The notes under the pieces were generated by a model that was not told the origin of the DNA, searched no databases, and saw nothing but the letters and a program-made list of their open reading frames with translations. The position numbers were made by a program, and so were the translations under genes. From contig CAJNOJ010000082.1 in NCBI GenBank assembly GCA_905250025.1, positions 248,001 through 312,000 on the forward strand: a DNA stretch of 64,000 nt. Direction: 5' to 3'. This document shows, piece after piece, positions 5,411-8,574 of this stretch. The DNA is from Adineta ricciae (taxonomy: Eukaryota > Rotifera > Eurotatoria > Adinetida > Adinetidae). Within the stretch, counting starts at the first letter, position 1. Each line of letters begins with the position of its first letter.

Positions 5411-5890
5411 ATGTTTGGATCGCGAGCATTTACATCAACACAAACTGGTCATAGATGTACGTCATCGGCGAAATTCACCTCTACTAGACAAGCTGAAAAT
5501 GATATTGCAGGTCAATTGAAATGAAACTTTTCCACATGATAAGAGATTCTTTTTCGAACGCTTAGATCGATATCGACTCGATGAAGTAGAAGATGAAACA
5601 CATCCAAAACGAAGTCTAGCGTGTGCTTTAATCTCCACATTGTGTTGTCCGCTTTTAGGTAAATAGTTTCATGAAGTTTGAATTATTTGTAAGAGATTTA
5701 TTCGTCAGGTATTCTTGCTATTTATTATGCGACTCGTGCAGTTCAAGCACATAATCAAGGGTTTTATGCTGAAGCAACAACATTCTACAAAAAATCAATA
5801 CGATGGTCATTGATTACGTTCATTATCGGTCTCGTTCTCGGTTCCATTGTCGCTTTTGGATTCTTTGTCAAAGCTGTTCTCGCTGTTTGA
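5411..5890 (+). CDS. Small two-TM CD225/dispanin-like membrane protein
   Basis: Three exons (5411-5510, 5566-5658, 5709-5890) encode about 124 residues. After a 40-residue polar N-terminus the protein has a first hydrophobic segment with a Cys-Cys-Pro motif (ALISTLCCPLLGILAIYYA), a polar loop with a GFYAEATTFYKKS stretch, and a second TM segment (WSLITFIIGLVLGSIVAFG). This is the layout of the CD225/dispanin superfamily, small membrane proteins that include interferon-induced transmembrane and synapse-differentiation-induced proteins. Membership is inferred from the TM1-loop-TM2 pattern and the A-x-x-x-S-K/R loop. Cell role and location cannot be told from sequence. The ATG lies 5 bases after an AG preceded by a T-rich tract, a possible trans-splice acceptor. 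Confidence 0.7.
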
Positions 5891-6546: not shown

Positions 6547-7415
6547 ATGTTTCTTTCGGTTGTCATATTTCTATTCTTCTCCTTTGGCCACGCGCAATAT
6601 TCTTATCAACAAGGGCGATATGCGTATAATAATTTTAACCCATGGTCAACCTATTCAACATGGAATCAAGGAGCTCGACAAAGTAAATCTTGAAGTGAAT
6701 GTATCATATTATCCTACAGATCGATTGATTTGATCTTTGTTAGCACAAGCAACTGTTCGTGGAAATCTCCTCAATGAAGATACATCTCCATTACCATACG
6801 GTTCGCAAATCAGTGTTTCACTTGTCGATGTTTCTCTTCAAGATGTTGCATCTCGTCCACTGAATACAATGGTCCTCTACGGATCTTATCGTTTTCCAAT
6901 CGCTTTCGAAATTCCATATTCAATGATGCAAGTTCAACAGAACGGAAATACCATTGGACAGTACGCGATTCAAGCACGTATTGAAAAAGATGGTCAGTTA
7001 CTTTACATCAACGATCAGTACACACCAGTACAGTTAATTCCGGCGCCGATCAATCCTGTGAATGTAATGATGAAAAAAATCGGAATCACGACAAATCCTG
7101 GTAAGACAATTTGCGGTATTTATCTGTGCGAAGGATACTTTTTATTTAGGAGCGGGCGGAATTTACACAACCGGATCGCCGATCACAAACAACATATACA
7201 ATTGTCAACAGATTCCCGATGTTGGACCGTGTCGAGCCTTCATTGAACAGTACTATTTCAATTCACAATTAGGTAGTTGCCAAGTTTTTATCTGGGGCGG
7301 ATGCGGTGGCAATCAAAATCGATTCGAAACTCGTTATGATTGTGAACGTGCTTGTTCATCCTATCAACGACCACGCATGTCTTTGAATAACATTCGACAA
7401 AAATGGATACAATAA
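6547..7415 (+). CDS. Secreted protein: YbaY/YscW-like domain fused to a Kunitz inhibitor domain
   Basis: Exons 6547-6682, 6744-7100 and 7150-7415 join to about 252 residues. Residues 1-17 (MFLSVVIFLFFSFGHAQ) form a signal peptide. Residues about 48-160 resemble the bacterial YbaY/YscW lipoprotein family: TVRGNLLNED, LPYGSQISVSLVDVSLQDV and FEIPYSMM match the 'V-x-G-x-V ... LP-x-x-x-x-x-V-x-L-x-D-x-S-L-x-D' pattern. The last part is a textbook Kunitz/BPTI domain with cysteine spacing C-8-C-15-C-7-C-12-C-3-C. Its residue after the second Cys (the usual P1 position) is Arg, which in this family favours trypsin-like protease targets. The protein is probably extracellular. The domain combination is unusual and is discussed as a finding. 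The domain calls are from pattern recognition, not a profile search. Confidence 0.85.
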
Positions 7416-8574
7416 AAATGTTCTTTTTTTTCTCCACAATTTACAGAACTCAAACAGTTGAATTTCCGATAACGTGCATCAATAATCCACAGAGTGAATT
7501 CATATCGTAGTTATAGTGTACAATAATAGAATGAAAATCTGGGTTATTGTTGTGCAAGAACATCGCTATGTTTACATTTGCTCGCGAAAAAGAATTTCCA
7601 TTGCATCGACACTATGGTTACGAAAAATATCTGCACGTGTATGTTGTAAGATAAAAATACTTTGTTTTTCGGAAGTAGGACGTCATTCAAGAGTCAGATG
7701 GAAGGGTAATGAAAATCTTTGTATCTGGAGCGAAAACATATAGAACAATGTATGTTAGTTGAATATCAAACGATAAATCTGACTTTTACATACTTAAGAG
7801 GCAAACAACCCTGGATAAGCGACATATGACACATGTCATCCATAGAAAAATCACATGACAGAACCTCTCATATTTATACGTACACGAGGTTTAAGAACAG
7901 AATAACGCCTCACCTATGCTTATTTGACATGATTATCAACTGATAAAATATTATGTTCTATTGCGTCGTATGTTGAGAGAAAAAAAACGAGATTGTTGCT
8001 GTTTATTCAGAATGTTAATCAAATAACTTTCCATGCTGCGTCAGTTTTAGTTTTATTTAAGTTTTTTTTGTGTTACACAGAGAGAAGAAAAACGAAAGAA
8101 CAAAACAAAATGGTTAGTTTGTTGTTGTTTTCACAAGACTAGGCAAAACACCAAAGAATAACAACCGACAAGAAGAATTTTCTATTCTTCTTTTTCGATC
8201 TTTCTCATTTTGAGCAAGACAAAACCATTACGTATATATGAAACATTCCAAGACAAGTTTGCTAACAGAAAGACATATACACCAACAATAAAAAAGAGAA
8301 AAAAAAAAGAAAAGAAACGGACATCTAATCTAACAACATCCATTGAAACTGCTTCATATATATGCATATATATATGTAGAACAAAGAAAAAATAAGCACA
8401 CCGGAGTAGAAGAATAGAACTGTTCTATACGAAAGGATTTGGATAATACAAGAAGAAGAAGAAAAAACAAATTAAAAAATCAACGAGCTGGTGTATCAGT
8501 TTCATTTTGGTGATATCGATAAACTCGAATATGATTTCGTTTTATCATACAACAGAGAAACAAGTAAACGAAGA
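7416..8574. other. Intergenic, low complexity
   Basis: AT-rich spacer of about 1.2 kb with A-rich tracts (8280-8320, 8440-8480) and a TA-rich stretch near 8355-8380. Open frames here (7516-7743, 8182-8395 on both strands) are short, compositionally biased and unlike any family I know. No gene is supported. Confidence 0.5.

Follow-up and report, generated by a model that had tools for sequence, protein, structure and literature searches.

The stretch of DNA analysed here (the window) comprises 64,000 nucleotides, bases 248001–312000 of contig C82, in an assembly of the Adineta ricciae genome of 130.5 Mb in 1033 contigs, and has a GC content of about 35% (contigs of this assembly are labelled C, and loci L). 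At positions 6547–7415 of the window, on the plus strand, lies a gene modelled as three exons and encoding a protein of 252 amino acids. Exon 1 (6547–6682, +) comprises the start codon, a hydrophobic signal peptide of approximately residues 1–16, recognised by eye, and a linker rich in Tyr and Asn. It is followed by intron 1 (6683–6743, +; 61 nt, GT–AG, phase 1). Exon 2 (6744–7100, +; 357 nt, phase 1–1) encodes a domain of the YscW/YbaY family (residues 46–141, approximately 6744–7030), and is separated by intron 2 (7101–7149, +; 49 nt, GT–AG, phase 1) from exon 3 (7150–7415, +), which encodes a linker, a Kunitz domain (residues 183–233, 7203–7355) and a C-terminal tail, ending with the stop codon at 7413–7415. 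A possible polyadenylation signal, AATAAA (7411–7416, +), identified by eye, overlaps the stop codon.

A sequence-only reading of this DNA had proposed a protein with a signal peptide, a YbaY-like middle domain and a Kunitz domain with canonical cysteine spacing and Arg at position P1, encoded by three exons, with the intron at 7101–7149 separating the domains. These features were borne out: inspection by eye agreed on the signal peptide, the gene model gave exactly the same intron, and the Pfam profile searches were significant for both domains, i.e., 57.3 bits versus a cut-off of 22.6 for PF09619 (YscW; E 2.2e-15) and 64.9 bits versus a cut-off of 21 for PF00014 (Kunitz; E 7.5e-18). The cysteines of the Kunitz domain have the exact spacing C-8-C-15-C-7-C-12-C-3-C, and the P1 residue of its loop (GPC-R-AF) is predicted to be Arg193, encoded by the CGA codon at 7233–7235 (+). 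A search of NCBIfam with the whole window protein gave no match. The multi-domain Kunitz/BPTI proteins SmCI, boophilin, TFPI and bikunin, which are the best PDB matches, share the cysteine spacing, the P1 loop and the signal peptide with the window protein, but differ in that the partner domain of the window Kunitz domain is YscW. Upstream of the gene, at 5693–5887 of the window, there is an exon resembling CD225 (the interferon-induced transmembrane protein family), which scored 26.4 versus a cut-off of 27.1; its counterpart on C81 passes the cut-off with 37.9, so that the gene order is common to the window and C81.

The window gene is a member of a family. Six-frame searches revealed at least 21 places with PF09619, at least 37 with Kunitz domains and at least 29 with potato inhibitor I (PotI, PF00280) in the genome, these counts being lower bounds for domains, with some of the 29 PotI places being exon pieces of one gene. 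Ten of the 21 YscW places are followed, on the same strand and within 1 kb, by an inhibitor domain, which is Kunitz at four of them and PotI at six; this compares with a chance expectation, under random placement, of 0.003 Kunitz and 0.002 PotI neighbours, about 0.005 in total. The ten genes have three architectures: YscW–Kunitz in three genes (C82, i.e., the window gene, C120 and C81); YscW–antistasin-like–Kunitz in one gene (C10); and YscW–PotI in six genes (C82 at 345623, beyond the window, C120, C81 with two, C1 and C27). When eight of the ten spliced proteins (the window protein and seven others, with C120_P and C27_P left out) were scanned with Pfam, both YscW and the inhibitor were above cut-off in all eight; the antistasin-like part was below its cut-off (17.2 and 19.7 versus 21.2 bits). 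The PotI domain, of which chains of CI-2 are among the PDB matches, is absent from the window gene and carried by its six paralogues, so the head behind YscW varies. Thus, the fusion proposed in the sequence-only reading stands, whereas its supposed lone occurrence does not, as 10 of 21 YscW places precede inhibitors, six of them PotI. A lone recent transfer into the window gene was rejected, as the architecture is common to the C82 and C81 copies.

Several further observations concern this family. The YscW–PotI gene at C82:345623–345910 lies outside the window, roughly 91 kb away from the YscW–Kunitz gene there, and C120 and C81 likewise carry a YscW–Kunitz gene and YscW–PotI genes, 72–96 kb apart. 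The PotI domain of one of the C81 genes (C81_P1, L014:2864–3601) also matches peptidase inhibitor I78, a bacterial-type family, at the cut-off (25.8 and 23.7 versus 23.6 bits), which may connect PotI with I78. In the titles and abstract openings found in the literature, a search that mostly excluded subscription papers, a YscW–inhibitor fusion was not reported, and no paper was found joining YscW with Kunitz or bdelloid with Kunitz. Among the matches listed, no paper on rotifer horizontal gene transfer contained YscW, nor, in what is a weak test, did any on metazoa, nematodes or tardigrades.

In all ten gene models the order is the same: a signal peptide exon, a YscW exon, then the inhibitor exon or exons. 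YscW is on one phase 1–1 exon in all ten, and the introns are GT–AG introns of 48–63 nt. The class 1–1 arrangement of exons is familiar from animal extracellular modules. The features by which an exon-shuffled module is recognised are found here, i.e., a symmetric exon, a single phase class and three architectures, and the fusion at the level of exons, which had been proposed for the window gene only, is thereby strengthened. The phase 1–1 borders are the signature of exon shuffling, and mark the YscW exon as a shuffling module.

The C10 locus has two tandem inhibitor genes (L009:1732–2394 and L009:2871–3929), which differ in the YscW exon. The first, read by eye, has a signal peptide, an antistasin-like part and a Kunitz domain without YscW; in the second, which was modelled, YscW is behind the signal peptide. 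The Kunitz domains of the tandem genes are 59% identical, and the Kunitz domain of the C10 YscW gene is 42% identical to that of the window gene. Hence, YscW was gained, lost or exchanged between tandem copies, and the head of the C10 gene cannot simply be equated with that of the window gene. The alternative of a single C10 gene, in which Kunitz domains would flank YscW on both sides, was discarded, since inspection of the frames by eye pointed to two genes in tandem.

The heads differ not only in fold but also in the residue at P1. In the Kunitz domains, P1 is Arg (window and C120), Tyr (C81) or Lys (C10). The position of P1 in the loop of PotI/CI-2 is well known, and by likeness to CI-2 the PotI loops, read by eye, have P1 residues Leu in SPVTL-D (C82 and C120), Met in SMVTM-D (C81, first gene), Lys in SKVSK-D (C81, second gene) and Met in SAMTM-D (C1 and C27). 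The Arg at P1 of the window protein predicts trypsin-like targets, and the combined set of P1 residues would correspond to trypsin-, chymotrypsin- and subtilisin- or elastase-like targets.

Rates of substitution were estimated by NG86 with Jukes–Cantor, which is saturated near dS 2. The window gene and its C120 copy are 93% identical (dN 0.033, dS 0.149, ratio 0.22), and the window gene and its C81 copy are 57% identical (dS 1.9, ratio 0.18). Pairs of PotI genes gave similar ratios (C82_P/C120_P, 0.21; C1_P/C27_P, 0.21; C82_P/C81_P1, 0.20), so that dN/dS is 0.18–0.22 for the five close or ohnologue-like pairs. Four more distant pairs gave 0.22, 0.29, 0.26 and 0.40, the range for all nine pairs tested being 0.18–0.40. 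By these ratios, the YscW–inhibitor proteins are conserved by purifying selection. The copies belong to two classes of divergence, with dS of 0.10–0.16 and about 2. For comparison, the published account of Adineta ricciae gives a GC content of 35.6%, a median intron of 55, a homologue KS of 0.14 and an ohnologue KS of 1.27 (PMC5916493); the dS of about 2 found here, a saturated estimate, exceeds that ohnologue value. As the architecture is common to the C82 and C81 copies, the fusion predates their split, and it probably predates bdelloid tetraploidy. A bdelloid spliced-leader sequence had no exact match in the genome.

At the other 11 YscW places neither Kunitz nor PotI was matched in the 1 kb downstream, which implies that YscW has uses without these inhibitors. 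At least five of the 11 (L015, L018, L019, L022 and L023) are single-exon frames without a signal peptide visible by eye, upstream exons being possible, and these five possibly represent intracellular uses. The YscW frames of L018 and L019 (C305) closely resemble each other and are separated by about 20 kb. Next to each lies a frame of 376 amino acids, which in L018 contains a TLDc domain; the pair looks like a local duplication. A different arrangement is found at L026:1492–4266 (C21), an open frame of 925 amino acids with two YscW stretches by Pfam, and four (one of them weak) by a custom profile, i.e., a multi-YscW protein.

Outside this genome, the domain was found in bacteria. In a sample of 299 genomes from the phylum of a Pseudomonas genome, PF09619 was above cut-off in 53 (56 at E 1e-3). 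A profile of 19 YscW domains from this genome matched a single PDB chain up to E 1, namely 5wec ('Lipoprotein'; 3.7e-23), and among the matches listed, the 5wec sequence is encoded in Vibrio genomes with up to 94% identity. A contig scan with a bacterial alignment, which reaches only near kin of the query, gave relatives whose titles, for the best 80 of 212 confirmed, name gammaproteobacteria. When genome contigs were scanned with an alignment built from three of the Adineta domains, there were 80 pattern matches, of which none was confirmed; viral contigs searched with the window domain gave no confirmed relative, and plasmids searched by tblastn with two YscW domains gave no match. The bacterial family is taken here to include ExsB. 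The fold of ExsB is a transthyretin-like β-sandwich according to one report (PMC3213119), and YscW is tabulated among families with Ig-like folds in another (PMC8877628). A third report terms YbaY poorly characterized (PMC9491580).

The bacterial YbaY/YscW lipoproteins (E. coli YbaY, ExsB, YscW and PDB 5wec) have the same domain by profile, behind an export signal, and in many of the bacterial frames scanned a second domain follows (META, MliC or NlpE). In 20 such frames, i.e., 17 of 31 listed (at least 190 amino acids) together with E. coli YbaY, L109 and L110, a choice which favours fusions, the partners were META in 12, MliC in three (one of which also has META) and DUF1481 in one, with YscW alone in five. 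One of the 12 META frames, L146:511–2073, also has NlpE, with YscW, the N- and C-terminal domains of NlpE and META in one frame. Fusion of relatives with a meta/hslJ domain was described in a study of Shewanella (PMC3219624). The META domain had no match in the Adineta genome. As the members of the MliC family are lysozyme inhibitors, the three YscW–MliC frames (L138, L149 and L157) show that in bacteria, as in the animal, YscW can be followed by an enzyme inhibitor; they share the order of YscW then inhibitor with the window protein, while the fold of the inhibitor, its target and its setting differ. Unlike its bacterial relatives, the window gene is spliced, belongs to an animal, lacks a lipobox and has partners that are eukaryotic-type protease inhibitors. 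There is no lipobox cysteine after the signal peptide, the first cysteine of the window protein being residue 183, within the Kunitz domain. A pilotin function was dismissed for the window protein, as the lipobox is lacking and an animal has no outer membrane.

A bacterial origin of the YscW domain, by the horizontal transfer that the sequence-only reading had put forward, is plausible, and was considered by means of two weakly resolved trees. The full tree comprised 21 animal and 58 bacterial domains over 107 columns, with Pseudomonadota and this genome only, and many of its forks were open; domains with E above 1e-8, L109, and L029–L108 except for nine chosen (E. coli L028 being the tenth) were set aside. 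In this tree the animal rows need two changes, and only 2% of 200 bootstrap trees separate them from the bacterial rows by a single branch; a single animal clade was nevertheless not rejected (p-AU 0.445). The reduced tree, picked after seeing the full tree and lacking its longest branches, retained 17 of the 21 animal and 25 of the 58 bacterial rows. It omitted the rows of L025, L026 and L027 together with the second YscW of L014, which is joined to an inhibitor, and thus held nine of the ten joined rows. Here a branch at 91/86, which is not among the starred ones, divides the animal rows from the others. Two changes are required for the nine rows joined to inhibitors, and their union in a single clade was not rejected (p-AU 0.229). 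The trees fit one acquisition followed by radiation, but they also fit an old eukaryotic domain. It is less probable, though far from negligible, that YscW is of old descent within eukaryotes or animals and looks bacterial due to poor sampling of eukaryotes. The 21 divergent places, the spliceosomal introns and the copies at dS of about 2 indicate that the domain is old in this genome. In a comparison of ten of the 21 animal domains, the best identity of the window domain was 35% to bacterial rows and 36% to paralogues outside the Kunitz group, i.e., it is about equally far from both. The argument against this view is weak: E. coli alone matched among 14 control genomes, but the five of these genomes whose names were given are all prokaryotes.

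What the YscW domain does in these proteins can be approached from the company it keeps. The N-terminal module stays the same while the heads behind it differ in fold and in P1, for which reason YscW is preferably read as a carrier. The best explanation, held with somewhat better than even confidence, is that the window protein is a secreted two-domain inhibitor of serine proteases, in which YscW is a constant carrier or docking module for interchangeable heads. By family and sequence, the C-terminal Kunitz head would block trypsin-like proteases via its Arg-P1 loop. The N-terminal YscW sandwich probably folds independently and, given that its bacterial kin dock envelope proteins, may dock the inhibitor to a partner such as an exosite of the protease, the matrix, the cuticle or the surface of a microbe. 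In this lineage the phase 1–1 YscW exon became a shuffling module, and the sequences show it preceding heads of three kinds (Kunitz, antistasin-like with Kunitz, and PotI) that differ in P1; a likely use is the control of foreign proteases, in defence, or of the animal's own digestive proteases.

It is unlikely, by comparison, that YscW is a spacer or a pro-domain that only aids folding, secretion or lifetime of the inhibitor, without binding any partner itself. Its position between the signal peptide and the inhibitor in 10 of 10 models, on a modular exon, would be in keeping with such a role, but purifying selection acts on the whole coding sequence, and the 11 YscW places without a Kunitz or PotI neighbour suggest that the domain has a function of its own. 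Quite improbable is a bivalent inhibitor in which YscW itself inhibits or binds hydrolases, the bacterial YscW–MliC proteins then being paired inhibitors that protect the envelope. The repeated pairing of YscW with an inhibitor (10 of 21 places in the animal, and MliC in three of 20 bacterial frames) points in that direction; however, the partner most often seen in the bacterial frames is META (12 of 20) and not the inhibitor MliC, and YscW is described as piloting a secretin. Contamination or a pseudogene has a negligible probability, in view of the animal-style introns, the 394-kb contig, the conserved copies on several contigs, the open frames and the dN/dS of about 0.2.

The reading of YscW as a carrier can be extended to its history, in a scenario that is offered tentatively and is on balance doubtful. 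A bacterial envelope-lipoprotein domain would have been captured once by an animal ancestor, become a phase 1–1 module, and then served as the constant dock of a combinatorial anti-protease arsenal, whose heads belong to two unrelated families at the least, and probably to three. Since the domain is paired with a lysozyme inhibitor in bacteria, its recurrent company with hydrolase inhibitors may stem from a common ability to bind hydrolases or the surfaces that they attack. If this is true, it would clearly exemplify the entry of a bacterial-type envelope domain into animal exon shuffling, where it came to precede unrelated inhibitors. It would make testable the ligands of YbaY/YscW domains and, in these animals, the action of a modular repertoire of inhibitors against the proteases of pathogens or of digestion.
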